From positions 5,078,653 to 5,142,652 of the forward strand of contig JAJEKV010000061.1 in the NCBI GenBank assembly GCA_021234155.1: DNA of 64,000 nucleotides. Reading direction: 5' to 3'. Positions within the stretch are counted from its first letter, which is position 1, and each line of letters opens with the position of its first letter. The notes beneath the pieces are model-generated. The model had not been told where the DNA came from and searched no databases. It saw only the letters and a list, made by a program, of their open reading frames with translations. A program made the position numbers and the translations under genes. Source of the stretch: Isoetes taiwanensis. Its lineage: Eukaryota > Streptophyta > Lycopodiopsida > Isoetales > Isoetaceae. Positions 2,657 through 40,660 of this stretch are shown here, piece by piece.

Positions 2657-3298
2657 TTTGCCTCAATATCTGTGCCATCGACTTCTTCAACGTGTTCTTG
2701 TCTCCCCTTCCTCTGCATGTTGGAATATAGTCTCAATCTCCATTTCTATGTCTACAGTTGTTTGTTCGATACCAACTTGATCTGGGATCTCCACACTCTC
2801 ATCTATTTCAGATTTTACCAAGTACTCTGCAACTACATCTTCGAACACAACTTCTTCAGCCTTCAAATGAGCAACTGTAACAAGAACATCAGCAAGTTGT
2901 ACATCCAGTATTTCATTCTGTATAACTTTTCTATCATCATCTTGTTGTGATGAGGTAGAAAGAATGAGTGAAATCTCATGCTCGATCTCATGCAATTCTT
3001 CGTCCACGTGAACCATGATACCTAAATCGGCACCTACCTCTTCTACATGCACATCAGCATGTTCAACTACTTCTTTCTCGTTCAAATCTTCTTGGACTTG
3101 CTTGCAAACAAATTCCTCTTCTATTGCAACTTCTATGTCCTTTGTTTGTGCATCCACTAAATTTGTTTCAAAAATTTCTTGAGGTTTTAGATGCTGCACA
3201 GTTAGATGTTCCTTATCTTGAACACAAGAGATTTCATTCTCATCTGCAATTCTTGTATTCTCCTCGGTTTGAGATCTTGTAAATGGTTCTGCAATTAC
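2657..3298 (-). pseudogene. Repeat exon 16, truncated by the transposon
   Basis: Only the upstream part remains. After GETRT a 14-bp deletion shifts the frame and gives a TGA at 2687-2689. The sequence stops at the transposon's terminal repeat at 2656. If the transposon simply inserted, the rest of this exon should resume beyond the window start, preceded by a second TTTG. Confidence 0.6.
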
Positions 3299-6200
3299 CT
3301 ATTCAAATGCAACATTTTCAATGTTTAAATTAGAATTATAATAACTGCATAACTATATTGTGATTCACTATCACTAACCTCTATCTCTTTCGGTATCACT
3401 GTTGGTTCTTCATCTTTGATCGCTTGCATAAGCTCTTCAGCATTCAAATAAATCGTTTCTTTTTCTACATGCACATTAGCGTCTTCAAATAATTAGTCTT
3501 CTTTCAAATCCTCCTTGTTCTGTAATGCTGTAAGTTCCCCTTCCATTCTTACCGCTATGTCTCCTGTCTCTTGTGCATCTACCTCCAGTACTGCTTCCAA
3601 ACATTCTTCAACTGGTACAGACTCAGCAACCAAGTGCACATCATCTTGAATAAGAACATCGATTTCTAGATGGCTGATCGCTTCTCCTGCCATCTTCTCC
3701 ACTTGTCTGGCTTCTATAGGCTCCAACTCCAGAGCTTTCTCATGAATAACAGCTTCTATCTGAATTTCTTGGAGACTGTCCTCTGAAACTGCATGCATAT
3801 GAGCTTCTACAACATCAAGATGTGGTGTCATCTCCTCTTCCTCATTTTGTTGGACTTCTGTCTCAACAATAATTTCCAATTCTAGAGTTGTTTGCTTGGT
3901 TTCAATATCATCCTCATGCACATTTTGCTCTTCTGCAAGCATAATATCCTCGACCAACTCTTTTTCATTAAAATTCTCCTCGACTTGGACTTTAACTTTT
4001 ATTTCAGTTTGTTCTACTTGCAAAGATTCTTGAGATCCAGCATGCTCAACAATTGGTTGTGGATCATTTTGGACGTGAAGAATGATCTCTATATGACTAA
4101 TTTCTTCCTCTACATTGGCCTCTATTTTCTTGGTTTCTACAACCTCTGATTTTACACGTCCTCTATAAGGCGGAGCAGATATCTCATTTTCTTGGACAAT
4201 TGTGTCCAAAATTGCATTTGCCTCAATATCTGTGCCATCGACTTCTTCAAAAACAACATCAAATTGTGTTGTTGTCTTCCCTTCCTCTGCATGTTGGAAT
4301 ATAGTCTCAATCTCCATTTCTATGTCTACAGTTGTTTGTTCGATACCAACTTGATCTGGGATCTCCACACTCTCATCTATTTCAGATTTTACCAAGTACT
4401 CTGCAACTACATCTTCGAACACAACTTCTTCAGCCTTCAAATGAGCAACTGTAACAAGAACATCAGCAAGTTGTACATCCAGTATTTCATTCTGTATAAC
4501 TTTTCTATCATCATCTTGTTGTGATGAGGTAGAAAGAATGAGTGAAATCTCATGCTCGATCTCATGCAATTCTTCGTCCACGTGAACCATGATACCTAAA
4601 TCGGCACCTACCTCTTCTACATGCACATCAGCATGTTCAACTACTTCTTTCTCGTTCAAATCTTCTTGGACTTGCGCTGCAACAAATTCCTCTTCTGTTG
4701 CAACTTCTATGTCCTTTGTTTGTGCATCCACTAAATTTGTTTCAAAAATTTCTTGAGGTTTTAGATGCTGCACAGTTAGATGTTCCTTATCTTGAACACA
4801 AGAGATTTCATTCTCATCTGCAATTCTTGTATTCTCCTCGGTTTGAGATCTTGTAAATGGTTCTGCAATTACCTATTCAAATGCAACATTTTCAATGTTT
4901 AAATTAGAATTATAATAACTGCATAACTATATTGTGATTCACTATCACTAACCTCTATCTCTTTCGGTATCACTGTTGGTTCTTCATCTTTGATCGCTTG
5001 CATAAGCTCTTCAGCATTCAAATAAATCGTTTCTTTTTCTACATGCACATTAGCGTCTTCAAATAATTGGTATCCTTCCAAATCCCCTTGTTCTGTAATG
5101 CTGTAAGTTCCCCTTCCATTCTTACTGCTATGTCTCCTGTCTCTTGTGCATCTAGCACCGGTACTGCTTCCGAACATTCTTCAACTGGTACAGACTCAGC
5201 AACCAAGTGCACATCATCTTGAATAAGAACATCGATTTCTAGATGGCTGATCGCTTCTCCTGCCATCTTCTCCAATTGTCTGGCTTCTATAGGCTCCAAC
5301 TCTACGGCTTTCTCATGAATAACAGCTTCTACCTCACATTCTTGAAGACTGTCCTCTGAAACTGCATGCACATGACCTTCTTCAACATCAAGATGTGGTG
5401 TCATCTCCTCTTCCTCATTTTGTTGGACTTCGGTCTCAACAACAATTTCCAATTCTAGAGTTGTTTGCTTGGTTTCAATATCATCCTCATGCACATTTTG
5501 CTCTTCTGCAAGCATAATATCCTCGACCAACTCTTTTCCATTCAAATTCTCCTCGACTTGGATTTATTTCAGTTTGTTCTACTTGCAAATATTCTTGAGA
5601 TCCAGCATGCTCAACAATTGGTTGTGGATCATTTTGGACGTGAAGAATGATCTCTATATGACTAATTTATTCCTCTACATTGGCCTCCATTTTCTTGGTT
5701 TCTACAACCTCTGATTTTACACGTCCTCTATAAGGCGGAGCAGATATCTCATTTTCTTGGACAATGGTGTCCAAAATTGCATTTGCCTCAATATCTGTGT
5801 CATCGACTTCTTCAACAACAACATCAAATTGTGTTGTTGTCTTCCCTTCCTCTGCATGTTGGGATATAGTCTCAATCTCCATTTCTATGTCTACAGTTGT
5901 TTGTTCGATACCAACTTGATTCGGGATCTCCACAATCTCATCTATTTCAGATTTTACCAAGTGCTCTGCAACTACATCTTCGAACACACCTTCTTCAGCC
6001 TTCAAATGAGCAACTGTAACAAGAACATCAGCAAGTTGTACATCCAGTATTTCATTCTGTATAACTTTTCTATCTCCATCTTGTTGTGATGAGGTGGAAA
6101 TAATGAGTGAAATCTCATGATCGATCTCATGTAATTCTTCGTCCACGTGAACCATGGTACCTAAATTGGCAACTACCTCTTCTATATGCACATCAGCATG

Positions 6201-9200
6201 TTCAACTACTTCTTTCTCATTCAAATCTTCTTGGACTTGCGCTGCAACAAATTCCTCTTCTGTTGCAACTTCTATATCCTCTGTTTGTGCATCCACTAAA
6301 TTTGTTTCAAAAATTTCTTGAGGTTTTAGATGCTGCACAGTTAGATGTTCCTTATCTTGAACACAAGAGATTTCATTCTCATCTGCAATTCTTGTATTCT
6401 CCTCGGTTTGATATCTTGTAAATGGTTCTGCAATTACCTATTCAAATGCAACATTTTCAATGTTTAAATTAGAATTATAATAACTGCATAACTATATTGT
6501 GATTCACTATCACTAACCTCTATCTCTTTCGGTATCACTGTTGGTTCTTCATCTTTGATCGCTTGCATAAGCTCTTCGGCATTCAAATAAATCGTTTCTT
6601 CTTCTACATGCACATTAGCGTCTTCAAATAATTGGTCTTCTTTCAAATCCTCCTTGTTCTGTAATGCTGTAAGTTCCCCTTTCATTCTTACCGCTATGTC
6701 TCCTGTCTCTTGTGCATCTACCTCCAGTACTGCTTCCAAACATTCTTCAACTGGTACAGACTCAGCAACCAAGTGCACATCATCTTGAATAAGAACATCG
6801 ATTTCTAGATGGCTGATCGCTTCTCCTGCCATCTTCTCCAATTGTCTGGCTTCTATAGGCTCCAACTCTACGGCTTTCTCATGAATAACAGCTTCTACCT
6901 CACATTCTTGAAGACTGTCCTCTGAAACTGCATGCACATGACCTTCTTCAACATCAAGATGTGGTGTCATCTCCTCTTCCTCATTTTGTTGGACTTCTGT
7001 CTCAACAATAATTTCCAATTCTAGAGTTGTTTGCTTGGTTTCAATATCATCCTCATGCACATTTTGCTCCTCTGCAAGCATAATATGCTCGACCAACTCT
7101 TTTCCATTCAAATTCTCCTCGACTTGGACTTTAACTTTTATTTCAGTTTGTTCTACTTGCAAAGATTCTTGAGATCCAGCATGCTCAACAATTGGTTGTG
7201 GATCATTTTGGACGTGAAGAATGATTTCTATATGACTAATTTCTTCCTCTACATTGGCCTCCATTTTCTTGGTTTCTACAACCTCTGATTTTACATGTCC
7301 TTTATAAGGCGGAGCAGATATCTCATTTTCTTGGACAATGGTGTCCAAAATTGCATTTGCCTCAATATCTGTGGCATCGACTTCTTCAACAGCAACATCA
7401 AATTGTGTTCTTGTCTCCCCTTCCTCTGCATGTTGGAATATAGTCTCAATCTCCATTTCTATGTCTACAGTTGTTTGTTCGATACCAACTTGATTCGGGA
7501 TCTCCACACTCTCATCTATTTCAGATTTTACCAAGTGCTCTGCAACTACATCTTCGAACACAACTTCTTCAGCCTTCAAATGAGCAGCTGTAACAAGAAC
7601 ATCAGCAAGTTGTACATCCAGTATTTCATTCTGTATAACTTTTCTATCTCCATCTTGTTGTGATGAGGTGGAAATAATGAGTGAAATCTCATGATCGATC
7701 TCATGTAATTCTTCGTCCACGTGAACCATGGTACCTAAATTGGCAACTACCTCTTCTATATGCACATCAGCATGTTCAACTACTTCTTTCTCATTCAAAT
7801 CTTCTTGGACTTGCGCTGCAACAAATTCCTCTTCTGTTGCAACTTCTATGTCCTCTGTTTGTGCATCCACTAAATTTGTTTCAAAAATTTCTTGAGGTTT
7901 TAGATGCTGCACAGTTAGATGTTCCTTATCTTGAACACAAGAGAGTTCATTCTCATCTGCAATTCTTGTATTCTCCTCGGTTTGATATCTTGTAAATGGT
8001 TCTGCAATTACCTATTCAAATGCAACATTTTCAACGTTTAAATTAGAATTATAATAACTGCATAACTATATTGTGATTCACTATCACTAACCTCTACCTC
8101 TTTCGGTATCACTGTTGGTTCTTCATCTTTGATCTCTTGCATAAGCTCTACGGCATTCAAATAAATCGTTTCTTTTTCTACATGCACATCAGCGTCTTCA
8201 AATAATTGGTATCCTTCCAAATCCCCTTGTTCTGTAATGCTGTAAGTTCCCCTTCCATTCTTACTGCTATGTCTCCTGTCTCTTGTGCATCTAGCACCTG
8301 CATCGCTCCAACATTCTTCAACCGGTACGACTTCGAACCAAGTGCACATCATCTTGAATAAGAACATCGATTTCTAGATGGCTGATCGCTTCTCCTGCCA
8401 TCTTCTCCAATTGTCTGGCTTCTATAGGCTCCAACTCTACGGCTTTCTCATGAATAACAGCTTCTACCTCACATTCTTGAAGACTGTCCTCTGAAACTGC
8501 ATGCACATGACCTTCTTCAACATCAAGATGTGGTGTCATCTCCTCTTCCTCATTTTGTTGGACTTCGGTCTCAACAACAATTTCCAATTCTAGAGTTGTT
8601 TGCTTGGTTTCAATATCATCCTCATGCACATTTTGCTCCTCTGCAAGCATAATATGCTCGACCAACTCTTTTCCATTCAAATTCTCCTCGACTTGGACTT
8701 TAACTTTTATTTCAGTTTGTTCTACTTGCAAAGATTCTTGAGATCCAGCATGCTCAACAATTGGTTGTGGATCATTTTGGACGTGAAGAATGATTTCTAT
8801 ATGACTAATTTCTTCCTCTACATTGGCCTCCATTTTCTTGGTTTCTACAACCTCTGATTTTACATGTCCTTTATAAGGCGGAGCAGATATCTCATTTTCT
8901 TGGACAATGGTGTCCAAAATTGCATTTGCCTCAATATCTGTGGCATCGACTTCTTCAACAGCAACATCAAATTGTGTTCTTGTCTCCCCTTCCTCTGCAT
9001 GTTGGAATATAGTCTCAATCTCCATTTCTATGTCTACAGTTGTTTGTTCGATACCAACTTGATCTGGGATCTCCACACTCTCATCTATTTCAGATTTTAC
9101 CAAGTGCTCTGCAACTACATCTTCGAACACAACTTCTTCAGCCTTCAAATGAGCAGCTGTAACAAGAACATCAGCAAGTTGTACATCCAGTATTTCATTC

Positions 9201-12200
9201 TGTATAACTTTTCTATCTCCATCTTGTTGTGATGAGGTGGAAATAATGAGTGAAATCTCATGATCGATCTCATGCAATTCTTCGTCTACGTGAACCATGG
9301 TACCTAAATCGGCAACTACCTCTTCTACATGCACATCAGCATGTTCAACTACTTCTTTCTCGTTCAAATCTTCTTGGACTTGCGCTGCAACAAATTCCTC
9401 TTCTGTTGCAACTTCTATGTCCTCTGTTTGTGCATCCACTAAATTTGTTTCAAAAATTTCTTGAGGTTTTAGATGCTGCACAGTTAGATGTTCCTTATCT
9501 TGAACACAAGAGATTTCATTCTCATCTGCAATTCTTGTATTCTCCTCGGTTTGATATCTTGTAAATGGTTCTGCAATTACCTATTCAAATGCAACATTTT
9601 CAATGTTTAAATTAGAATTATAATAACTGCATAACTATATTGTGATTCACTATCACTAACCTCTATCTCTTTCGGTATCACTGTTGGTTCTTCATCTTTG
9701 ATCGCTTGCATAAGCTCTTCGGCATTCAAATAAATCGTTTCTTCTTCTACATGCACATTAGCGTCTTCAAATAATTGGTCTTCTTTCAAATCCTCCTTGT
9801 TCTGTAATGCTGTAAGTTCCCCTTTCATTCTTACCGCTATGTCTCCTGTCTCTTGTGCATCTACCTCCAGTACTGCTTCCAAACATTCTTCAACTGGTAC
9901 AGACTCAGCAATCAAGTGCACATCATCTTGAATAAGAACATCGATTTCTAGATGGCTGATCGCTTCTCCTGCCATCTTCTCCACTTGTCTGGCTTCTATA
10001 GGCTCCAACTCTACAGCTTTCTCATGAATAACGGCTTCTATCTGACTTTCTTGGAGACCGTCCTCTGAAACTGCATGCACATGAGCTTCTTCAACATCAA
10101 GATGTGGTGTCATCTCCTCTTCCTCATTTTGTTGGACTTCGGACTCAACAACAATTTCCAATTCTAGAGTTGTTTGCTTGGTTTCAATATCATCCTCATG
10201 CACATTTTGCTCTTCTGCAAGCATAATATCCTCAACCAACTCTTTTCCATTCAAATTCTCCTCGACTTGGACTTTAACATTTATTTCAGTTTGTTCTACT
10301 TGCAAAGATTCTTGAGATCCAGCATGCTCAACAATTGGTTGTGGATCATTTTGGACGTGAAGAATGATCTCTATATGACTAATTTCTTCCTCTACACTGG
10401 CCTCCATTTTCTTGGTTTCTACAACCTCTGATTTTACACGTCCTCTATAAGGCGGAGCACATATCTCATTTTCTTGGACAATAGTGTCCAAAATTGCATT
10501 TGCCTCAATATTTCTGCCATCGACTTCTTCAACAGCAACATCAAATTGTGTTGTTGTCTCCCCTTCCTCTGCATGTTGGAATATAGTCTCAATCTCCATT
10601 TCTATGCCTACAGTTGTTTGTTCGATACCAACTTGATCCGGGATCTCCACACTCTCATCTATTTCAGATTTTACCAAGTGCTCTACAACTACATCTCGAA
10701 CACAACTTCTTCAGTCTTCAAATGAGCAACTGTAACAAGAACATCAGCAAGTTGTACATCCAGTATTTCATTCTGTATAACTTTTCTATCTCCATCTTGT
10801 TGTGATGAGGTGGAAATAATGAGTGAAATCTCATGATCGATCTCATGCAATTCTTCGTCTACGTGAACCATGGTACCTAAATCGGCAACTACCTCTTCTA
10901 CATGCACATCAGCATGTTCAACTACTTCTTTCTCGTTCAAATCTTCTTGGACTTGCGCTGCAACAAATTCCTCTTCTGTTGCAACTTCTATATCCTCTGT
11001 TTGTGCATCCACTAATTTTGTTTCAAAAATTTCTTGAGGGTTTAGATGCTGCACAGTTAGATGTTCCTTATCTTAAACACAAGAGATTTCATTCTCATCT
11101 ACAATTCTTGTATTCTCCTCGCTTTGAGATCTTGTAAATGGCTCTGCAATTACCTATTCAAATACAACATTTTCAACGTTTAAATTAGAATTATAATAAC
11201 TGCAAAACTATATTGTGATTCACTATCACTAACCTCTACCTCTTTCGGTATCACTGTTGGTTTTTCATCTTTGATCTCTTGCATAAGCTCTTCGGCATTC
11301 AAATAAATCTTTTCTTCTTCTACATGCACATCAGCATTTTCAAATAATTGGTCTTCTTTCAAATCCTCCTTGTTCTGTAATGCTGTAAGTTCCCCTTCCA
11401 TTCTTACCGCTATGTCTCCTGTCTCTTGTGCATCTACCTCCAGTACTGCTTCTAAACATTCTTCAACTGGTACAGACTCAACAACCAAGTGCACATCATC
11501 TTGAATAAGAACATCGATTTTTAGATGGCTGATCGCTTCTCCTGCCATCTTCTCCACTTGTCTGGCTTCTATAGGCTCCAACTCTACAGCTTTCTCATGA
11601 ATAACGGCTTCTATCTGACTTTCTTGGAGACCGTCCTCTGAAACTGCATGCACATGAGCTTCTTCAACATCAAGATGTGGTGTCATCTCCTCTTCCTCAT
11701 TTTGTTGGACTTCGGACTCAACAACAATTTCCAATTCTAGAGTTGTTTGCTTGGTTTCAATATCATCCTCATGCACATTTTGCTCTTCTGCAAGCATAAT
11801 ATCCTCGACCAACTCTTTTCCATTCAAATTCTCCTCGACTTGGACTTTAACTTTTATTTCAGTTTGTTCTACTTGCAAAGATTCTTGAGATCCAGCATGC
11901 TCAACAATTGGTTGTGGATCATTTTGGACGTGAAGAATGATCTCTATATGACTAATTTCTTCCTCTACATTGGCCTCTATTTTCTTGGTTTCTACAACCT
12001 CTGATTTTACACGTCCTCTATAAGGCGGAGCAGATATCTCATTTTCTTGGACAATAGTGTCCAAAATTGCATTTGCCTCAATATTTCTGCCATCGACTTC
12101 TTCAACAGCAACATCAAATTGTGTTGTTGTCTCCCCTTCCTCTGCATGTTGGAATATAGTCTCAATCTCCATTTCTATGCCTACAGTTGTTTGTTCGATA

Positions 12201-18200: not shown

Positions 18201-21200
18201 CTCTACACCTTTCTCATGAATAACAGCTTCTATCTGAATTTCTTGAAGACTGTCCTCTGAAACTGCATGCACATGAGCTTCTTCAACATCAAGATGTGGT
18301 GTCATCTCCTCTTCCTCATTTTGTTGGACTTCGGTCTCAACAACAATTTCCAATTCTAGAGTTGTTTGCTTGGTTTCAATATCATCCTCATGCACATTTT
18401 GTTCTTCTGCAAGCATAATATCCTCGACCAACTCTTTTCCATTAAAATTCTCCTCGACTTGGACTTTAACTTTTATTTCAGTTTGTTCTACTTGCAAATA
18501 TTCTTGAGATCCAGCATGCTCAACAATTGGTTGTGGATCATTTTGGACGTGAAGAATGATCTCTATATGACTAATTTCTTCCTCTACATTGGCCTCCATT
18601 TTCTTGGTTTCTACAACCTCTGATTTTACACGTCCTCTATAAGGCGGAGCAGATATCTCATTTTCTTGGACAATAGTGTCCAAAATTGCATTTGCCTCAA
18701 TATCTGTGCCATCGACTTCTTCAACAACAACATCAAATTGTGTTGTTGTCTTCCCTTCCTCTGCATGTTGGAATATAGTCTCAATCTCCATTTCTATATC
18801 TACAGTTGTTTGTTCGATACCAACTTGATTCAGGATCTCCACATTCTCATCTATTTCAGATTTTACCAAGTGCTCTGCAACTACATCTTCGAACACAACT
18901 TCTTCAGCCTTCAAATGAGCAACTGTAACAAGAACATCAGCAAGTTGTACATCCAGTATTTCATTCTGTATAACTTTTCTATCTTCATCTTGTTGTGATG
19001 AGGTGGAAATAATGAGTGAAATCTCATGCTCGATCTCATGCAGTTCTTCGTCCACGTGAACCATGGTACCTAAATTGGCACCTACCTCTTCTACATGCAC
19101 ATCAGCATGTTCAACTACTTCTTTCTCGTTCAAATCATCTTGGACTTGCTCTGCAACAAATTCCTCTTCTGTTGCAACTTCTATATCCTCTGTTTGTGCA
19201 TCCACTAAATTTGTTTCAAAAATTTCTTGACGTTTTAGATGCTGCACAGTTAGATGTTCCTTATCTTGAACACAAGAGATTTCATTCTCATCTGCAATTC
19301 TTGTATTCTCCTCGCTTTGAGATCTTGTAAATGGCTCTGCAATTACCTATTCAAATGCAACATTTTCAACGTTTAAATTAGAATTATAAGAACTGCATAA
19401 CTATATTGTGATTCACTATCACTAACCTCTACCTCTTTCGGTATCACTGTTGGTTCTTCATCTTTGATCTCTTGCATAAGCTCGTCGGCATTCAAATAAA
19501 TCATTTCTTCTTCTACATGCACATCAGCGTCTTCAAATAATTGGTCTTCTTGCAAATCCTCCTTGTTCTGTAATGCTGTAAGTTCCCCTTCCATTCTTAC
19601 CGCTATGTCTCCTGTCTCTTGTGCATCTACCTCCAGTACTGCTTCCAAACATTCTTCAACTGGTACAGACTCAGCAACCAAGTGCACATCATCTTGAATA
19701 AAAACATCGTTTTCTAGATGGCTGATCACTTCTCCTGCCATCTTCTCCACTTGTCTGGCTTCTATAGGCTCAAACTCTACATCTTTCTCATGAATAACAG
19801 CTTCTATCTGAATTACTTGGAGACTGTCCTCTGAAACTGCATGCACATGAGCTTCTTCAACATCAAGATGTGGTGTCATCTCCTCTTCCTCATTTTGTTG
19901 GACTTCGGTCTCAACAACAATTTCCAATTCTAGAGTTGTTTGCTTGGTTTCAATATCATCCTCATGCACATTTTGCTTTTCTGCAAGCATAATATCCTCG
20001 ACCAACTCTTTTTCATTAAAATTCTCCTCGACTTGGACTTTAACTTTTATTTCAGTTTGTTCTACTTGCAAAGATTCTTGAGATCCAGCATGCTCAACAA
20101 TTGGTTGTGGATCATTTTGGACGTGAAGAATGATCTCTATATGACTAATTTCTTCCTCTACATTGGCCTCTATTTTCTTGGTTTCTACAACCTCTGATTT
20201 TACACGTCCTCTATAAGGCGGAGCAAATATCTCATTTTCTTGGACAATGGTGTCCAAAATTGCATTTGCCTCAATATTTCTGCCATCGACTTCTTCAACA
20301 ACAACATCAAATTGTGTTGTTGTCTTTCCTTCCTCTGCATGTTGGAATATAGTCTCAATCTCCATTTCTATGCCTACAGTTGTTTGTTCGATACCAACTT
20401 GATTCGGGATCTCCACACTCTCATCTATTTCAGATTTTACCAAGTGCTCAGTAACTACATCTTCGAACACAACTTCTTCAGCCTTCAAATGAGCAACTGT
20501 AACAAGAACATCAGCAAGTTGTACATCCAGTATTTCATTCTGTATAACTTTTCTATCTTCATCTTGTTGTGATGAGGTGGAAATAATGAGTGAAATCTCA
20601 TGATCGATCTCATGCAGTTCTTCGACCATGTGAACCATGGTACCTAAATTGGCACTTACCTCTTCTACATGCACATCAGCATGTTCAACTACTTCTTTCT
20701 CGTTCAAATCTTCTTGGACTTGCGCTGCAACAAATTCCTCTTCTGTTGTAACTTCTATATCCTCTGTTTGTGCATCCACTAAATTTGTTTCAAAAATTTC
20801 TTGAGGTTTTAGATGCTGCACAGTTAGATGTTCCTTATCTTGAACATAAGAGATTTCATTCTCATCTGCAATTCTTGTATTCTCCTCGCTTTGAGATATT
20901 GTAAATGGCTCTGCAATTACCTATTCAAATGTAACATTTTCAACGTTTAAATTAGAATTATAATAATTGCATAACTATATTGTGATTCACTATCACTAAC
21001 CTCTACCTCTTTCGGTATCACTGTTGGTTCTTCATCTTTGATCTCTTGCATAAGCTCTTCGGCATTCAAATAAATCGTTTCTTCTTCTACATGCACATCA
21101 GCGTCTTCAAATAATTGGTCTTCTTTCAAATCCTCCTTGTTCTGTAATGCTGTAAGTTCCCCTTCCATTCTTACCGCTATGTCTCCTGTCTCTTGTGCAT

Positions 21201-24200
21201 CTACCTCCAGTACTGCTTCCAAACATTCTTCAACTGGTACAGACTCAGCAACCAAGTGCACATCATCTTGAATAAGAACATCGATTTCTAGATGGCTGAT
21301 CGCTTCTCCTGCCATCTTCTCCACTTGTCTGGCTTCTATAGGCTCCAACTCTACAGTTTTCTCATGAATAACAGCTTCTATCTGACTTTCTTGGAGACCG
21401 TCCTCTGAAACTGCATGCACATGAGCTTCTTCAACATCAAGATGTGGTGTCATCTCCTCTTCCTCATTTTGTTGGACTTCGGTCTCAACAACAATTTCCA
21501 AGTCTAGAGTTGTTTGCTTGGTTTCAATATCATCCTCATGCACATTTTGCTCTTCTGCAAGCATAATATCTCAAGCAACTCTTTTCCATTCCAATTCTCC
21601 TCGACTTGGACTTTAACGTTTATTTCAGTTTGTTCTACTTGCAAAGATTCTTGAGATCCAGCATGCTCAACTATTGGTTGTCGATCATTTTGGACGTGAA
21701 GAATGATCTCTATATGACTAATTTCTTCCTCTACATTGGCCTCCATTTTCTTGGTTTCTACAACCTCTGATTCTACACGTCCTCTATAAGGCGGAGCAGA
21801 TATCTCATTTTCTTGGGCAATGTTGTCCAAAATTGCATTTGCCTCAATATCTGTGCTATCGACTTCGTCAACAACAACATCAAATTGTGTTGTTGTCTTC
21901 CCTTCCTCTGCATGTTGGAATATAGTCTCAATCTCCATTTCTATGTCTACAGTTGTTTGTTCGATACCAACTTGATCCGGGATCTCCACACTCTCATTTA
22001 TTTCAGATTTTACCAAGTGCTCTGTAACTACATCTTCAAACACAACTTCTTCAGCCTTCAAATGAGCAACTGTAACAAGAACATCAGCAAGTTGTACATC
22101 TAGTATTTCATTCTGTATAACTTTTCTATCTCCATCTTGTTGTGATGAGGTGGAAATAATGAGTGAAATCTCATGCAATTCTTCGTCCACGTGAACCATG
22201 GTACCTAAATCGGCACCTACCTCTTCTAGATGCACATCAGCATGTTCAACTGCTTCTTTCTCGTTCAAATCTTCTTGGACTTGCGCTGCAACAAATTCCT
22301 CTTCTGTTGCAACTTCTATGTCCTCTGTTTGTGCATCCACTAAATTTGTTTCAAAAATTTCTTGAGGTTTTAGATGCTGCACAGTTAGATGTTCCTTATC
22401 TTGAACATAAGAGATTTCATTCTCATCTGCAATTCTTGTATTTTCCTCGCTTTGAGATCTTGTAAATGGCTCTACAATTACCTATTCAAATGCAATATTT
22501 TCAACGTTTAAATTAGAATTATAATAACTGCATAACTATATTGTGATTCACTATCACTAACCTCTACCTTTTTCGGTATCACTGTTGGTTCTTCATCTTT
22601 GATCTCTTGTATAAGCTCTTTGGCATTTAAATAAATCGTTTCTTCTTCTACATGCTCAACAATTGATTGCGGATCATCTTGGACGTGAAGAATGATCTCT
22701 ATATCACTAATCTCTTCCTCTACATTGGCCTCCATTTTGTTGGTTTCTACAATCTCTGATTTTATACGTCCCTTATAAAGTGGAGCAGATATCTCATTTT
22801 CTTGGACAATAGCGCCCAAAATTGCATTTGTCTCAATATCTGTGTCATCGACTTCTTCAACAACAACATCAAACTGTGTTGTTGTCTCCCCTTCCTCTAC
22901 ATATTGGAATATATTATCAATCTCCCTTTCTATGTCTATAGTTGTTTGTTCAATATCAACTTGATCCGGGATCTCCACATTCTTATCTATTTCAGTTTTT
23001 ACCAAGTTCTCTGCAACTACATCTTCGAACGCAACTTCTTCAGCCTTCAAGTGAGCAACTGTAACAAGACCATCGGCAAGTTGTACATCCAATGTTTCAT
23101 TCTCTATAACCTTCTTATCTCCATCTTGTTGTGATGACGTGGAAATGATGAGTGAAATCTCATGTTCGATCTCATGCAATTCTTCTTCCACGCGAACCAT
23201 GGTACCTAAATCGACACCTACCTCTTCTACATGCACATCAACATGTTCAACTACTTCTTTCTCGTTCAAATCTTCTCGGACTTGCGCTGCAACAAATTCC
23301 TCTTCTGTTGCAACCTCTATACTCTTTGTTCGTGCATCCACTAATTTTGTTTCAAAATTTTCTTGAGGTTCTACATGCTGCACAGTTAGATGTTCCTTAT
23401 CTTGAATACACGAGATTTCATTCTCGTCTGCAATTCGTATATTCTCCTCGCTTTGAGATCTTGCAAATGGCTCTGCAACTACCTGTTCAAATGCAACATT
23501 TTCAACGTTTAAATTAGAATTATAATAAATGGATAAATATATTGTGATTCACTATCACTAACCTCTACCTCTTCCGGTATCACTGTTGGTTTTACATCTA
23601 TGGAATTCGCAAGTGATTCTTCATCTTTGATCTCTTGCATAAGCTCATTCAAATAAACCATTTCTTCTTCTATATGCACATCAGCCTCTTCAAACAATTG
23701 TTCTTCTTTCAAATCCTCCTTGTTCTGTAATGCTGTAAGTTCCCCTTCTATTTTTACTGCTATGTCTCCTGTCTCTTGTGCATGTACCACTAGTACTGCT
23801 TCTAAATATTCTTCAACTGGTACAGAGTCAGCAACCAAGTGCATATCATCTTGAATGAGAACATCGATTTCTACATGACTGATCGCTTCTCCTGCCATCT
23901 TCTCCATTTGTCTGGCTTCTGTAGGCTCCAACTCTACAGCTTTCTCATGAATAACAGCTTCTATCTGACTTTCTTTGAGACTATCCTCTGAAACTGCATG
24001 TACATGAGCCTTTTCAACATCAAGATGTGGTATCTCCTCTTCCTCATTTTGTTGGACTGCGGTCTCAACAATAACTTCCAATTCTTGAGTTGCTTGCTTA
24101 GCTTTAATATCCTTCTCACGCACATTTTGCTTTTCTGCAAGCATAATATCCTCAACCAACTCTTCTGGGTTCAAATTCTCCTCGACTTGGACTTTCTCTT

Positions 24201-27200
24201 TTATTTCAGTTTGTTTTACTTGCAAGGATTCCTGAGATCCAGCATGCTCAATAATTGATTGTGTATCATTTTGGACGTGAAGAATGATCTCTATATGACT
24301 AATTTCTTCCTCTATATTGGCCTCCATTTTCTTAGTTTCTATAACCTCTGATATTACACATCCTCTATAAGGAGGAGCAGATGTTTCATTTTCTTGGACT
24401 ATAGCATCCAAAATTTCTTCAACAGCAACATCAAGTTGTGTTGTTATCTCCTCTTCCTCTGCATGTTGGAATATAGTCTCAATCTCCATTTCTATGTCTA
24501 TAGTTATTTGTTCGATACCAACGTGATCCGCGTTCTCCACACTCTCATCTATCTCAGATTTTATCAAATGCTCTGAAATTACATCTTCTAACGCAACTTC
24601 TTCAGCCTTCAAGTGAGCAACTGTAACAAGACCATCAGCAAGTTGTACATCCAATGTTTCATTCTCTATAATCTTTCTATCTCCATCTTGTTGTGATGAG
24701 GTGGAAATGATGAGTGAAATTTCCTGTTCGATCTCATGCAATTCTTCGTCCATGTGAATCATGGTACCTAAATCGGCACCTACCTCTTTTACATGCACAT
24801 TAGCATGTTCAATTACTTTTTTCTCGTTCAAATCTTCTTGGACTTGGGCTGCAACAAATTCCTCTTCTGTTGCAACCTCTATACCCTCTTTTTGTGCATC
24901 CACTAATTTTCTTTCAAAAATTTCTTGAGGTTCTACATGCTGCACAATTAGATGTTCCTTATCTTGAACACACGAGATTTCATTCTCATCTGCGATTCTT
25001 GTATTCTCCTCTCTAAGAGATCTTGCAAATGGCTCCGCAGCTACCTGTTCAAATGCAAAATTTTCAACGTTTAAATTAGAATTACAATAAATGGATAACT
25101 ATATTATGATTCACTATCACTAACATCTACCTCTTCCGGTATCATTGTTAGTTTTACATCTATGGAATTTATAAGTGATTCTTCATCTTTGATCTCTTGC
25201 ATAAACTTTTGGGCATTCAAATACATCGTTTCTTCTTCTACATGCACATCATCGTCTTCAAATAATTGTTCTTCTTTCAAATCCTCCTTGTTCTGTAATG
25301 TTGTAAGTTCCCCGTCCATTTTTACAGCTATGTCTCCTGTCTCTTGTGCATCTACCACCAGTACTGCTTCCAAATATTCTTCAACTGGTACAAACTCAGT
25401 AACTAAGTGCATATCATCTTGAATATGAACATCGATTTCTACATGGCCGATCGCTTCTCTGACCATCTTCTCCACTTGTCTTGCTTCTATAGGCGCCAAC
25501 TCTATAGCTTTTTCATGAATAACAACTTCTATTTGACTTTCTTGGAGACTGTCCTCTGAAACTGGTACATCAAGATGTGTTATCTCCTCTGCCTCATTTT
25601 GTTGGATTGCGGTCTCAACGACAATTTCCAATTCTTGAGTTGTTTGCTTCGTTTCAATATCCTCCTCATGCACATTTTGTTCTTCTGCAAGAATAATATC
25701 CTCAACCAACTCTTCTGCATTCAAATTCTCCTCGACTTGGACTTTCTCTTTTATTTCAGTTTGTTCTACTTGCAAAGATTCTTCAGATCCAGCATGCTCA
25801 ACAATTGATTGTGGATCATTTTGGACGTGAAGAATGATCTCTATATGACTAATTTCTTCCTCTACATTGGCCTCCATTTTCTTGGTTTCTACAACCTCTG
25901 ATTTTACACGTCCTCTATACGGTGGAGCAAATATCTTATTTTCTCGGACAATGGCGTCCAAAATTGCATTTTCCTCCATATCTGTGTTATCAACTTCTTC
26001 AACAGCAACATCAAGTTGTGGTGTTGTCTCCTCTTCCTCTGCATGTTGGAATATAGTCTCAATCTCCATTTCTACGTCTACAGTTGTTTGTTCAATACCA
26101 ACTTCCACACTCTCATCTATTTCAGATTTTACCAAGTGCTCTGCAATTACAACTTCTAGCGCAACTTCTTCAGCCTTCAAGTGAGCATCTGTAACAAGAC
26201 CATCAACAAGTTGTATATCCAATGCTTCATTCTCTATATCTTCTCTGTCTCCATCTTGTTGTGACAAGGTGAAAATGTTGAGCGGAAGCTCATGTATGAT
26301 CTCATGCAATTCTCCGTCCACGTGAACCACGACACCTAAATCAACACCTACCTCTTCTACATGCACATCAGTATGTTCAACCACTTTCTTCTCGTTCAGA
26401 TCTTTCTGGACTTGAGCCGCAATAAATTCCTCTTTTGGTGCAACCTCTATACTCTCTGTTTGTGCATCCACTAATTTTGTTCCAAAATATTCTCGAGCTT
26501 CTACATGCGGCACAATCAGATGTTCGTCATCTTGAATATACGTGATTTCAATCTCATCTGTAATTCTTAAATACTCATCGCTTTGAGATTGTGCAATAGG
26601 CTCTGCAACCGCCTGTTCAAGTGCAACATTTTCAACATTTAAATTAGAAATTATAACAAATGGATAACTATATTGTGATTCACTATTATGAAACCTCTAC
26701 CTCTTCCACATTTAGATGAACCTTGTTTTGAACATGCTTGATCTTAATCTCATCTGCAATCTGCACATGCTTGTTGCTTTGAGATTGTACTAAAAGCTCT
26801 GCAATTACCTGATGAAATGCAACATTTCTAATATTTAAATTATAAATTGTAACGAACACATAATTGATCTATGATTCACTATCTCTAACTTCTACCTCAT
26901 CCACTATTGGTTGTTTTAGACCAGTTGAATTCACAAGTGATTCTTGATCCTTGATCTCTTGTAGCGATTCTTGATTTATATCGCGAACCACATTATCCCA
27001 ATGAACTTTTTCCTTGTCTATATGCAAATTAGTATCTTTAACCATTTTTTGTTCATTCAAATCCACCTTGTCCTGAATAGTTGCAAGTTCTCCTTCCATT
27101 TTAATCCCTATGACGGTTGCTTCCAGTGCACCCATCAATACTGCTTCAAATTGTTTTTCAATTGGTATATGTTTAATAACCAAATGCACATCATCTTGGA

Positions 27201-30098
27201 TGAGAACATCAGTTCTTTCATGGTTGGTTGCTTCTTGCAGTATCTCGTCTACTTGTCTAGCTTCTACAAGCTCTACATTTATATCTTTCTTGTAAACTAT
27301 ATCTTCTATCTTATTTTCTTGGATATTGACCTCTGAAACTACCTGTACATCATCTTCCTCAATATGGACATCAAGATGTGGTGTTATCTTCTCTTGCTTG
27401 TTTGCTTGGATTATGGTCTCAATCCCTTGAGGAACATCAATATCTTTGACTAATTGTTGTTCATCCAAATCCTCCTTGTTCTGGACTGCTAGGAACTGCC
27501 CTTCAACAATCAAATTTGCACCATCTTGAATGTAAGTATCAACTTCTACATAGTTGATTGTTGCATCTAACATCTCCTCCATTTGTCTCGCTTCTGTAAC
27601 CTCTGATTCTGTATCTTTCTCATGAATTGCAGCATTTATCTGAGTTTCTTGGACAATAGTCTCTGAATATAACTTCGCATCGACTTCTTTAGCAGCAAAA
27701 TGAGGATATGATGTTGCTTCCTTTTCATCTTTTTGTTGTATTAATGTCTCAACCGCCCCTTCCACTTGTTCAATGATTTGCTTGATTTCAATGTCCCCCA
27801 CAATTCCCTCTTGTACCTTTTGTTCTTTTAGAAGCACAACACTGTCAGTCACTTCTTCCTCATTCAATTCCTCCTTGTCTTGGACTATATATTTCTCTTT
27901 TAGCTCATCCTGTTTTACTCCCACACATCCTTGAATTGTTGTATGTACAACAATTAAGCGTGCCTCATCTCGGAGGTGAACATTAGTTTCTACATCGTTC
28001 ATTGCTTCTTCTAAGTTCTCCTCCACTTGTTTCTCTATCTCCTTTGATTCTACCCCATGAAGTGTAACATCTATTTGATTTTCTTGGATACTTGACTTTG
28101 AAACTTCTCCTGCTCCAACGTCGGCTTCATTAGCAGTAATATTAAGATGTGTTGTTATTTCCCTTTTCTCTCTTTGTTGGATATCTTGCTTTTTGGTTGT
28201 TTGTTTGGCTTCGATATTAACTGCAGTTTCCACATGCTCGTCTATTTGAGATTGTATTAAGTACTCTGCAATTACATCTCTCAACGCAACCTTTTCAAAG
28301 TTCAAGTCATTAGATGTAACAATTCCATCATTAAATTGTGCATCAAATGGTTCATCCTCTATCACTTCTTTCCCTCCATGCATTTCTTCTGCTGTTTGGT
28401 GTTGTGCAGAGGTAGAAATGACGAGTGATTCTTCATGTTTGATCTCTTGCCATTCTTCCATAACACTCAAATGGAACCTCACCTCTTCTACATGTCTATC
28501 TTCTTGCTCAACCAATTCCTTTTCACTTAGATCTCCCTGGACTTGGATTGCCACAAATTCTGCTTTGGGTTCAACATTCATGCCATCCACTAATTCTGTT
28601 TTTAAACATTCTTGAGTTGTTGTATACTCACCAATCAGATGCATCTCATCTTGAGCATGAGAAGCGGTCTCTATATGGGTGATTCCCTCGTCTACCGTCT
28701 TCTCTAGTTCTCTTGCCTTCGTAACCTTTGATCCATTGATCATTAGTAACATATTGTGTACTTCATTCTTCTCAGAAACAATTAACACATGGCTGTCAGC
28801 CACTTTTGTTGGTGTACATGTATCCAAGAAAGAGGACTGCTTATTATTCCAACATTCACGTTCAACCACTGGCATTATTTCTTCTGGCTTAGAAACAAGG
28901 ATCTCTGTGTCAAATTCGTTATCTTTAAAATGAGATGGCAAAATTGAGGCTCTTGGGAAGATGGGTGTCTGTAAATCTGAATCATCAATAGGAATTCCAA
29001 ATGAAAATTCCAACTTAGAAATTCCTTTTATTTTTCGTCCAGTATCAACAGGTAGATAGGATCTAGAAGAAGACTTTGATTCAGAAAAAATCTCCTGGTT
29101 ATTATTTCCTTCCAACTCAGTAACATCTGGCTTCTTCTTGGATGAGGAAGATTTTTCTTTGATGATGGTATCAATGTTACATTTTGTCTGGAATCTCAAC
29201 TCCTTATCTGTCTTTGACTCTAGATCTGTAGTTGCAGTTTCTTCTTTGCTGGTGCTTATCTCTGCCTTTTCTTTTTCGCAATGTGATATAAATACAGCTG
29301 CATTACTGATATCTGATTCTCCAATTTTTGTTGCATGTTTTACTCCCATGGTTTGGCTCACCGATCTAGAGTTTGAGTAAAGCGGTAGTCGGCTCTGCGA
29401 AATTATGGCAAAGTTTTCCTCTAGAATAGTAGTTCCTGCTTTTTGTTCCTCTTTACACTCACTTTCTTTTGAGTCTTGAAATGGTAAAAGCATCTCTGAT
29501 TTCATATTGATTGAATCCTTTCCAGAACCATTTTGAATTTCTCTAGAAACATGAGATATACCTTCCACTACTTCTGTAGAATTTTCTTTCAGTTTACCTC
29601 TTTTGCTATTGGATAGATATTTGGGATCTTTTTTCTCTTTTTGAATAACTGAACCCTTTGCAAGCCTTTCTTTAGAAGCCTTCCTTCCAAGAACATCTGA
29701 ATCATGAGTGATATCCGTTCTGGGCTTGGGCTCTAAAACAGTCTTAATTGATTCAATATCAACCTCCTTCTCCAGAGATGTGTCTGACTTGTATCAAGAT
29801 CACCTGGAATTTCCTTTATCTCAAATGCCTTTTTAGTTTGTTCAATAGCTCTTTTCTCCAAAGAAATAGTAGCCTCTTGAACCTCTCTCTCTAAAGTAAA
29901 TACTTGGGCGACATTACTTTCTTCGATCAACTCTGAGAGCTCTTCTTCAGCATCATGAAATCCCTCAGATCCAGTATCACCATAAAAGATACTCGACGAA
30001 ACTTGTTTGCCTTGTGAAGATGTTGAACATATGGCCTCTATAGTAGATGAAGATTCCGATAAATTGCCATACTGAGAAGTTCGAGATGCTTCATTTTC
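2657..30098 (-). CDS. Giant acidic repeat-protein gene: 16 tandem exon units (partly decayed)
   Basis: One minus-strand locus of unknown function. A 3.2-kb exon (26890-30098) and a 38-codon exon (26695-26808) are followed by 16 copies of one exon, normally 498 codons. The copies are separated by 80-bp introns with donor GAG|GTTAGTG and acceptor GAATAG|GTAATTGCAG. All junctions are phase 0, so every exon is symmetrical and each repeat unit is exon plus intron. The product is rich in Glu, Val, Asp, Gln and Ile, with no signal peptide or membrane segment seen, and is probably elongated or disordered. Each exon holds three anchor motifs (near residues 26, 267 and 408) of the form VQDD-x-HLV...ECLE. 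Several exons are broken, the 5' exons lie beyond 30.1 kb or are unrecognised, and the 3' end is cut by the transposon at 2656. It is either a partly functional long gene or a decaying expansion; no family was recognised. Confidence 0.6.
3379..4872 (-). pseudogene. Repeat exon 15 of 16, single nonsense near its end
   Basis: Full 1494 bp and open except for a CAA-to-TAA change at 3493-3495 (KEDLKED* where others read DQLFED). If transcripts reached this unit in frame, translation would stop here, about 38 codons before the donor. Confidence 0.6.
4953..6437 (-). pseudogene. Repeat exon 14 of 16, nonsense plus two indels
   Basis: 1485 bp. TAA replaces a sense codon at about 5667 after EANVEE (shared with exon 7). 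An 8-bp loss near 5563 removes part of EIKVKV. A later 1-bp loss near 5085 gives the NKGIWKDTNY wrong-frame tail before the original frame resumes. Net loss is 9 bp. Splice sites are intact. Confidence 0.6.
6438..6517 (-). other. Representative array intron (80 bp, phase 0)
   Basis: Donor GTTAGTGATAG and acceptor TTTGAATAG, with a CTAAT branch-like word about 50 nt after the donor. Equivalent introns lie at 3299-3378, 4873-4952, 8012-8091, 9581-9660, 11154-11233, 12727-12806, 14303-14382, 15879-15958, 17779-17852, 19347-19426, 20921-21000, 22482-22561, 23483-23562, 25045-25124, 26613-26694 and 26809-26889. Splicing is inferred because the frame on both sides is phase 0 and continues cleanly, while the unspliced frame hits TAA within the intron. 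Confidence 0.6.
6518..8011 (-). CDS. Repeat exon 13 of 16, intact, 498 codons
   Basis: Full-length 1494-bp exon, open from acceptor at 8011 to donor at 6517. It is a good representative of the consensus: VIAEPF start, VQDKEH anchor near residue 26, VQNDPQPIVEHAGSQE near 267, IQDDVHLVAESVPVEE near 408, EEPTVIPKEIE end. Neighbouring units 12 and 14 are both broken, so an open copy here could reflect recent conversion from an intact unit, or selection. Confidence 0.65.
8092..9580 (-). pseudogene. Repeat exon 12 of 16, multiple small indels
   Basis: 1489 bp. The upper 387 codons (from 9481) are open, then the frame is lost near 8318-8335 where CAACCGGTACGACTTCGAACC replaces the consensus around anchor 3. 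Downstream, the reading around TEQGDLEGYQLFEDAD is a rearranged version of NKEDLKEDQLFEDAD caused by compensating 1-bp changes. The GYQ variant is shared with exon 14. Confidence 0.6.
9661..11153 (-). pseudogene. Repeat exon 11 of 16, same 1-bp frameshift as exon 10 plus nonsense
   Basis: 1493 bp with the ACATCTCGAAC deletion near 10691-10701 shared with exon 10. In addition, the CAA codon in VQDK is TAA at 11073-11075, a lesion shared with exon 7. The lower 356 codons are open. Confidence 0.65.
11234..12726 (-). pseudogene. Repeat exon 10 of 16, 1-bp deletion frameshift
   Basis: 1493 bp. The consensus ACATCTTCGAAC is ACATCTCGAAC at about 12264-12274, a 1-bp loss that truncates the upper frame after KTEEVVFEM; the lower 356 codons (from 12250) stay open in the other frame. 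Exon 11 has exactly the same loss. Confidence 0.65.
12807..14302 (-). pseudogene. Repeat exon 9 of 16, same 2-bp frameshift as exon 8
   Basis: 1496 bp, with the TATATATCTCC insertion near 12984-12992 and the GTTGGTG donor seen in exon 8. The main frame is open for 406 codons from 14203 before the shift. Its EGVFEDVV and ISQHAEEG variants are shared with exon 14 instead, so the copy is a mosaic. Confidence 0.65.
14383..15878 (-). pseudogene. Repeat exon 8 of 16, 2-bp insertion frameshift
   Basis: 1496 bp. The word TATGTCTCC of the consensus (plus strand) is TATATATCTCC near 14560-14568, a 2-bp gain that ends the main frame after AQETGDI. The lower part (14299-14610) is open in the shifted frame. 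Exon 9 carries the same insertion. The donor is GTTGGTG rather than GTTAGTG, also shared with exon 9. Confidence 0.65.
15959..17778 (-). pseudogene. Repeat exon 7 of 16, split by a MITE and with nonsense codons
   Basis: 1820 bp, equal to the 1494-bp consensus plus a 322-bp MITE (16593-16914) and its 4-bp target duplication. There is a TAA at 17698-17700 near codon 27 (CAA to TAA in VQDK) and another TAA at about 17008 after EANVEE. Both lesions recur elsewhere in the array (exons 11 and 14), so this unit arose partly from already broken copies or by gene conversion. Splice sites look normal. Confidence 0.65.
16593..16914. mobile_element. 322-bp MITE inserted in repeat exon 7
   Basis: Terminal inverted repeats start GGGTAAAAGCATGTTAGGGT and end with the near complement. 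The flanking 4-bp duplication TTGT occupies 16589-16592 and 16915-16918; removing the insert restores the array consensus exactly. It is non-coding, AT-rich inside, with an inner TACCCAGTACCCAG word. It shares ends and length with 34444-34765 and ends with the relic at 1-2656, its possible autonomous relative. Confidence 0.85.
17853..19346 (-). CDS. Repeat exon 6 of 16, intact, 498 codons
   Basis: Full-length and open. It differs from its neighbours by small substitutions (HLKRQEIF, VQDDLNEK, SQEYLQVEQ). The intron on its upstream side (19347-19426) is 80 bp and the one on its downstream side (17779-17852) is 74 bp through a 6-bp loss, the only intron of the array that deviates by more than 1 bp. 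Confidence 0.65.
19427..20920 (-). CDS. Repeat exon 5 of 16, intact, 498 codons
   Basis: Full-length 1494-bp exon, open throughout, standard donor and acceptor. Sequence is near the consensus with scattered changes, for example TVHM-VEELHEID and the Asn-for-Asp changes in SHLENDVF. It shows the normal order: N-terminal VIAEPF block, anchor 1, the STSSQQD segment, the APPYRGRVKSE segment, anchor 2, anchor 3, and C-terminal EEPTVIPKEVE. Confidence 0.65.
21001..22481 (-). pseudogene. Repeat exon 4 of 16, frameshifted
   Basis: 1481 bp, 13 short of the consensus. A 12-bp in-frame loss removes four codons around DEELHEI (near 22170). A 1-bp loss near 21570 shifts the frame, so the upper part (21504-22382) ends in a wrong-frame tail and the lower part (20947-21564) continues in another frame. 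Splice sites are intact. The remaining sequence is close to the consensus. Confidence 0.6.
22562..23482 (-). CDS. Repeat exon 3 of 16, internally deleted but in frame, 307 codons
   Basis: Open reading frame with normal splice sites but 921 bp instead of 1494. After VQDDPQSIVEH the sequence jumps directly to VEEETIYLNAKELIQ, so about 570 bp is gone. The join lies between two VEE-type words, which suggests recombination between the internal sub-repeats. Length stays divisible by three, so the exon can still be read through. Confidence 0.6.
23563..25044 (-). CDS. Repeat exon 2 of 16, intact, 494 codons
   Basis: Open throughout, phase 0 at both ends. It is diverged from the consensus and shares with exon 1 the extra SLANSID-like segment near the C-terminus. 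It lacks the codons for the VDGTDIEANA stretch found after FDV in other units. The anchors VQNDTQSIIEHAGSQE and IQDDMHLVADSVPVEE are clear. Confidence 0.6.
25125..26612 (-). CDS. Repeat exon 1 of 16, intact, 496 codons
   Basis: Fully open from acceptor GAACAG|GCGGTTGC to donor GAT|GTTAGTG. It is one of the three most diverged copies, with many substitutions relative to the consensus (for example VEAREYFGTKLVDAQTES where later units have HLKPQEIFETNLVDAQ). It also has an extra SLINSID segment before the C-terminal PEEVDV, shared with the next unit and resembling SLVNST in the large exon. It is transitional between the large exon and the homogeneous downstream copies. Product function unknown. 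Confidence 0.6.
26695..26808 (-). CDS. Mini exon of the repeat gene, 38 codons
   Basis: An open phase-0 exon between acceptor TCATCAG|GTAATTGC and donor GAG|GTTTCATAA. Its start (VIAELLVQSQSNKH) and end (VHLNVEEVE) correspond to the first about 30 and last few codons of a full unit, so it looks like a full unit that lost its middle by internal deletion while keeping both splice sites and frame. It lies between the large exon and the first full repeat unit. Confidence 0.5.
26890..30098 (-). CDS. Large upstream exon of the acidic repeat gene (one frameshift)
   Basis: About 1070 codons between an acceptor TTTCAG|GAAAATG at 30098 and a donor GAA|GTTAGAG at 26890. The 5' third is Ser/Lys-rich, without repeats. 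From about 28.7 kb downward it carries four diverged anchors (AQDEMHLIGE, LRDEARLIVV, IQDGANLIVE, IQDDVHLVIK), each followed by an E-rich arm with LNE/LDE and VEE words. The repeat exons therefore look like offspring of this exon. The frame breaks near 29785-29800: upstream codons read KEIPGDLDTSQ, downstream ones DTSLEKEVDIESIK. The exon is 3209 bp, one short of a multiple of three, which fits a 1-bp deletion or a sequence error. The upstream exon was not identified. Confidence 0.6.
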
Positions 30099-40300: not shown

Positions 40301-40660
40301 AGGTTTTTATGTTTCAAAAGATGCATTTGGTACCACGAAAGTTTAAACCTCCTCTGATCTTAGCCAGATGTGAGGTAACTGATATCGTTATTACTTTCCC
40401 CCTTTTATTTGCTTCATAATTGATCTTCCCTTTAAACCTTTTCATTTGCTTCATTTGCAATGCACAGGTCTGCAATATATTCCTTAGACAGCTTGAAAAA
40501 CATGTGCATAATTTCCACATGCAGACTTTATCTTACGTGCAAGAGGATCTGTTGGAGAGGTTACTGGTAGAGACACATTGTACACTAGGTGTGTGCTACT
40601 AGAGCGTGACCCAATATGGTCTGTTATTATTATTCAAATCACTACAACTAAATTTGACAT
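37333..40660. other. Long non-coding stretch between hairpin and PPR relic
   Basis: No recognisable gene. Points of note: a GGCC-rich palindromic cluster near 38510-38600 (GGGCCACATTGGCCC-like hairpin); a repeated GTTCGACATCAACCAACTGTT at about 38605-38660; and GGGTTGCCC/GGGCAACCC words at 39175, 39702 and 39745. All open stretches here are short and lack domain signatures. Confidence 0.35.

Follow-up and report, generated by a model that had tools for sequence, protein, structure and literature searches.

A gene on the minus strand of the 64-kb Isoetes taiwanensis window (the whole stretch of DNA analyzed here) would consist, in its 3' part, of tandem copies of a single phase-0 exon, each with its own short intron. 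In the explanation that we prefer, to which sequence comparisons lead us to give an even chance, this is a lineage-specific gene whose 5' part would encode an acidic chain of ~2,700 residues and whose 3' exons would have been multiplied by unequal crossing-over and would now be decaying. We consider it about as likely as not that the 5' portion still functions as a gene. Exon A, exon B, a mini-exon, units 1–3 and part of unit 4 would be read in one frame of ~2,700 residues, and the acidic chain, judged from its composition alone, may serve as a spacer or polyanionic scaffold. Unequal crossing-over would account for the growth of the exon array: with an exon length divisible by three and a donor and acceptor in every copy, the frame would survive the gain or loss of copies. 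Units 5–20, beyond the first stop, would represent a recent expansion under at most weak constraint, decaying through frameshift, nonsense and transposon insertion.

Self-comparison with one unit traced the array on the minus strand from position 26,612 down to 2,657 with a period of 1574 bp, as the sequence-only reading had described it, and located 16 head-to-tail unit starts within the window, all in one orientation, which is the layout of a tandem exon array. The starts lie at 26612, 25044, 23482, 22481, 20920, 19346, 17778, 15878, 14302, 12726, 11153, 9580, 8011, 6437, 4872 and 3298. The majority consensus unit of 1574 bp is composed of 498 open codons (1494 bp) followed by an 80-bp GT-AG segment in phase 0. 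Exon lengths of units 1, 2 and 3 are 1488, 1482 and 921 bp, multiples of three like the consensus, and the unit-to-unit junctions are uniformly in phase 0, as had been claimed. The count of 16 copies in the earlier reading is correct for the window, but the array does not end there: past a transposon at position 2657 follow the rest of unit 16, units 17–19 and 147 bp from the start of unit 20, giving 19 units plus a fragment of unit 20 when DNA beyond the window is included. Beyond the break in unit 20, no further units were found within the following 20 kb or anywhere else on that side.

Open end to end as single exons are seven of the 19 units, namely 1 (25045–26612), 2 (23483–25044), 3 (22482–23482, with a 573-bp in-frame deletion), 5 (19347–20920), 6 (17779–19346, with a 6-bp deletion in its intron), 13 (6438–8011, exon 8011–6518 and intron 6517–6438) and 17. 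The other 12 contain a frameshift, stop or insert, and no one frame is open through the whole array. Unit 4 (20921–22481) has a frameshift and a stop at unit codon 326, where the predicted protein ends, and unit 7 (15879–17778) carries a 326-bp insertion besides two nonsense codons. A 2-bp insertion is common to units 8 (14303–15878) and 9 (12727–14302), and a 1-bp deletion to units 10 (11154–12726) and 11 (9581–11153), the latter also having a nonsense codon. Three small frame-breaking deletions were observed in unit 12 (8012–9580), two deletions and a nonsense codon in unit 14 (4873–6437) and a nonsense codon in unit 15 (3299–4872), while the first part of unit 16 (2657–3298) has a 14-bp deletion before it is cut by the transposon, its remainder lying outside the window.

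The units differ in age along the array. Exon identity is 86–92% between units 1–3 and the other full units, and 95.1–98.7% among units 4–19. A decayed, inverted paralog lies on the opposite strand of the same contig (C1069:4,968,774–4,971,437), ~95 kb from the array. It comprises two units and the initial 95 bp of another, with about a third of the unit missing and the same intron; each of the two units has two nonsense codons, the first also has an insert, and the paralog is cut by other DNA. When this paralog was used as the root of a FastTree tree, units 1, 2 and 3 branched off singly, one after another, and units 4–19 formed one shallow group in which adjacent units were often paired. This is the picture that unequal crossing-over, multiplying units at the 3' side, would be expected to leave.

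Upstream of unit 1, further segments on the minus strand belong to the predicted gene. Exon A (29804–30098, 295 bp) is an open frame that starts in phase 0 after the acceptor TTTCAG, and exon B (26890–29732, 2843 bp) begins with ~335 Ser/Lys-rich amino acids, the rest being a diverged form of the repeat. It is followed by an 81-bp intron (26809–26889), a putative 38-codon mini-exon (U00, 26695–26808) that is a unit remnant, and an 82-bp intron (26613–26694) whose donor is altered to GTTTCA. The frames of exon A and exon B do not join directly, and removal of 71 bp (29803–29733) restores the frame. This putative phase-1 intron (CAG/GTGATC ... TTTTAG, 29733–29803) came from an enumeration of frame-keeping GT-AG pairs and is one of several candidates, ranking third by a crude score behind two that remove more sequence. 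The alternative is a true frameshift, which would favor a pseudogene. No start codon was found, exon A beginning after an acceptor, and no convincing upstream exon was detected up to 64 kb, where open frames were read and a crude codon-usage scan gave four segments with weak scores; the gene may therefore lack its 5' end.

Spliced as modeled, exon A, exon B, the mini-exon and units 1–3 form 2381 codons with no stops, compared to 193 and 202 stops in the other two frames of the same join. From the start of exon A to the stop at codon 326 of unit 4 the model comprises 2706 residues (306 kDa, pI 4.3). With unit 4 left out, the frame stays open through units 5 and 6 and next meets a stop at codon 27 of unit 7. 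The sequence-only reading had proposed a product of more than 7000 residues; because unit 4 has a frameshift and a stop, the predicted chain instead ends near 2,700. Spliced length can therefore not be read off an array, the predicted chain stopping here in unit 4 of 19.

The frame was kept in the older units. Distinct changes in units 1–3, scored against the consensus of the younger units, include no stops where 10.1 were expected from the substitution spectrum, and all seven distinct exon indels in these units are multiples of three (12, 3, 18, 27, 30, 6 and 573 bp, a 3-bp and a 27-bp event that occur in more than one unit each being counted once). In units 4–19, leaving out two transposon inserts, 11 distinct exon indels were counted, of which nine disrupt the frame and two are multiples of three, a contrast to units 1–3 that is significant by Fisher's test (p = 0.002). 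The younger units have four stops versus 11.4 expected (p = 0.012); this deficit suggests that they were not wholly free of constraint, and they may for a time have been translated.

At the level of residues there is little sign of constraint. The spectrum-matched ratio of replacement to silent changes is 1.07 for units 4–19 and 1.12, 0.87 and 0.91 for units 1, 2 and 3, respectively. Maximum likelihood dN/dS is 1.01–1.36 over seven pairs and 2.18 for the two paralog units, and NG86, which ignores transition bias, gives 0.56–1.07 over ten pairs. Because dN/dS is near neutral, residue constraint appears weak or absent, with the frame nonetheless kept in the older part. Replacements that conserve amino acid class showed no steady excess over ten pairs.

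The alternative that survives best, although we consider it rather unlikely, is that the locus as a whole has become a pseudogene, once a tandem-exon gene and now cut short by transposons at both ends and unexpressed, in which the 5' part is merely less decayed. A dN/dS near 1 is what would be expected of a pseudogene, and the change of frame from exon A to exon B (unless the 71-bp intron is accepted), the outcome of the upstream exon search and the break of the 3' end inside unit 20 all agree with it, as does the decay of the paralog with its two nonsense codons per unit, its insert and its cut end. However, 2381 stop-free codons together with only in-frame indels in the oldest and most diverged units need selection until recently.

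The chain encoded by this gene is probably long, very acidic and, as its composition suggests, disordered. In the consensus unit Asp and Glu together make up 28% of residues, with Glu at 20.9% and Val at 12.9%, and the net charge is −114 over 498 residues (acidic minus K and R). A charge-hydropathy analysis placed the unit on the disordered side, and likewise 77% of the 50-residue windows in the 2706-residue model. The AlphaFold2 model of the unit had a mean pLDDT of 29.6 and a pTM of 0.15, which, coming from a six-row alignment, is weak evidence for disorder. Within the unit, residues 26–113 resemble residues 408–493 (Smith-Waterman score above 200 of 200 shuffles at each of seven splits), while BLASTP (E 0.01), used to look for nested repeats in the unit, gave only the self match. 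The later part of exon B resembles the unit in a diverged form, with 38 and 29% identity to it in two registers. Given the older internal repeat and the unit-like exon B, repetition is present at more than one level. With a limit of E 1, no Pfam family matched the unit or the frames of exons B and A, and among PDB sequences no chain matched the unit. Four weak PDB chains that would liken exon B to diadenylate cyclase (E 0.19–0.71) were taken as chance. These searches agree with the earlier statement that no family could be recognized, and since neither Pfam nor PDB gave homology to titin or a muscle family, the likeness to titin PEVK is, as had been said, in style only.

Whether negative charge itself has been selected was assessed in two ways, and the evidence is mixed. 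A unit-to-unit simulation indicated that more acidic residues were kept than under neutrality in the six comparisons run. As the simulation assumes a start composition, changes were then polarized. With other units as outgroups, acidic losses numbered 7 in unit 1 versus 16.2 expected and 5 in unit 2 versus 10.6 expected; with the paralog as outgroup they numbered 5 versus 5.7 (unit 1) and 3 versus 5.4 (unit 2). Units 4–19 had 41 losses versus 40.9 expected. It is conceivable, though we think it unlikely, that this is a protein gene in which only openness of the frame, length and acidity were visible to selection, with residues being replaced at the synonymous rate, frame and negative charge persisting, and exon copy number being the trait that evolves. 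If so, Isoetes species would differ strongly in exon count, from a giant chain to a collapsed array.

A still less likely possibility, which we would give a small chance, is that the giant protein of more than 7,000 residues is made and broken units are skipped. Skipping would keep the frame because all unit junctions are in phase 0, and the seven open units and the nearly invariant splice sites (GT in 19 of 19 units, AG in 18 of 19) are compatible with it. The I. taiwanensis assembly (described as 1658.30 Mb in 204 scaffolds and 909 unplaced contigs) is reported to be a miniasm assembly of nanopore reads, with racon and pilon used for polishing (PMC8566536), and a nanopore-based assembly with short-read polishing could leave errors in repeats. 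However, 12 of 19 units are broken, and the frame-breaking changes are common to neighbors (units 8/9 and 10/11) or to near neighbors (units 12 and 14), so they were copied, and random sequencing error does not explain them. Moreover, the seven open units amount to ~3,300 codons and, with exons A and B and the mini-exon, to ~4,400, not 7,000.

Consecutive exons are separated by an 80-bp linker that is probably removed by splicing. Of the 19 units, 17 have the donor hexamer GTTAGT, and units 8 and 9 have GTTGGT; the one unit without an AG acceptor is unit 16, which has AT. Among eight copies compared, linker lengths are 81 bp (after exon B), 82 bp (after the mini-exon), 80 bp (each of units 1, 2, 3 and 13) and 74 and 81 bp (paralog units 1 and 2). 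GT and AG are present in all eight, and a TTCTAAT-type block (TTCTAATTTAAA) in seven. The 80-bp intron with common donor and acceptor that the sequence-only reading proposed is supported, with some variation in length. In number of distinct changes per site, linkers change no faster than exons (0.100 vs. 0.180 in units 1–3; 0.125 vs. 0.146 in units 4–19).

A competing view, very improbable in our judgment, is that the linker is a former coding linker and each unit a separate open frame ending in it. The 81-bp linker of paralog unit 2 reads through in frame, the paralog comparison points to remnants of one common peptide at both ends of other linkers, and the rate of change in linkers, not above that of exons, would also suit coding sequence. 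Yet lengths of 74, 80, 81 and 82 bp break the frame, and the linker is not frame-keeping across the eight copies, whereas exon indels in the flanking units 1–3 keep it. GT and AG are preserved in all of these diverged copies. The acceptor has also changed from CAG to TAG (C-to-T) in units 3–19 and paralog unit 1, a change that keeps YAG but would be nonsense if the linker were coding. Since its length can differ by one or two bases although the exons on either side cannot change in this way, the linker is best read as an intron, with splicing deduced from the logic of the frame.

Searches of the genome (1,658,258,908 bases in 1110 contigs) showed how narrowly the repeat is distributed. By DNA, 13 of 15 matches fell on contig C1069, in the array or its paralog, and by protein 37 of 39, all of these counts being lower bounds. 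That the repeat is a non-coding satellite or a transposon-borne repeat is barely credible, for although its tandem structure, high identity and surrounding transposons would suit such an origin, the protein-level matches in array or paralog lie on one contig, openness is strong in a single frame, and the copy distribution in these searches, with its lower bounds, speaks against satellite DNA, the same array not recurring at many unlinked loci (one array and one paralog on C1069, two short pieces elsewhere). The two other matches are these short pieces, on contigs C224 and C1040. They lie in two unlinked copies of a longer sequence (L009:2275–5900 and L010:50–4250), which contain a ~200-bp piece of the repeat family closest in pattern to the paralog. 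This longer sequence is common to both contigs, at 95–97% identity over 1.3 and 2.4 kb, and since the short pieces lie inside it they are probably a gene fragment captured on a mobile element. A literature search found no paper on the array locus, and the words 'tandem', 'intron' and 'exon' are absent from the main text of the Isoetes paper (PMC8566536).

The architecture resembles several known systems in part. Titin PEVK and nebulin are built of repeated in-frame exons that encode a low-complexity or repetitive chain, and the PEVK region of titin is Glu/Val-rich and disordered. The array shares the repeated in-frame exons, the repetitive chain and the Glu/Val-rich composition; however, titin and nebulin are animal muscle proteins with short exons, and the unit and exon B have no related PDB chain or Pfam family. 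The kringle IV array of apolipoprotein(a) encodes folded kringle domains, with two exons per repeat in phase 1. Like the Isoetes array, it consists of near-identical exon blocks with introns whose copy number is altered by unequal crossing-over, whereas the Isoetes array has one exon per repeat and no predicted fold. Arrays of the Tetrahymena LRR type, composed of 90-bp phase-2 exons, are described in many genes and with RNA-seq support (PMC6564038). As that paper portrays them, they are likewise tandem single-exon arrays with uniform intron phase, probably grown by unequal crossing-over, near transposons, fast-evolving and lineage-specific. The Isoetes array differs from this description in its 1494-bp exon, its phase 0, its lack of a match to a known domain or LRR family and its restriction to one locus. 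If expressed, it would exemplify, in a plant, the multiplication of a very large exon together with its intron. Frame keeping would be separable from residue turnover within one locus, the older copies keeping the frame and the younger losing it, and the locus would offer a test bed for the growth and death of tandem-exon genes and for selection on the length and charge of a disordered chain alone.

Two inserts interrupt the array itself. A ~9.15-kb element whose ends are inverted (GGGTAAAAGCATG...) splits unit 16 and is accompanied by a 4-bp duplication; one end occupies positions 1–2656, and the other lies outside the window (L001:6658 to the end of L002). In its longest frames no Pfam family passed the cut-off, and one weak match to NIF phosphatase (E 0.18) suggests that the element may carry gene fragments. 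The insert in unit 7 (16589–16918, minus strand, with the 4-bp duplication ACAA counted on both sides) is a small 322-bp element with inverted ends. These resemble the ends of the ~9.15-kb element over 23–26 bp at 88–92% identity, and it is probably a short, non-autonomous relative of that element.

Other repeats and gene remnants were also observed around the locus. Downstream of the array, an LTR-type retrotransposon (L005:4135–8792, minus strand) matches reverse transcriptase (E 2.6e-41) and integrase (E 5.8e-11). Within the window, a complex minisatellite at 33776–35024 contains units with TTGATATCTAA and GGGAACGTCTAGA motifs in several nested periods, and a broken PPR gene at 40658–42182 on the plus strand has PPR matches in two separate open frames. 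A Helitron remnant at 61117–63714, also on the plus strand, retains matches to Helitron_like_N (E 1.4e-22) and a PIF1-like helicase (E 2e-29) in broken frames.
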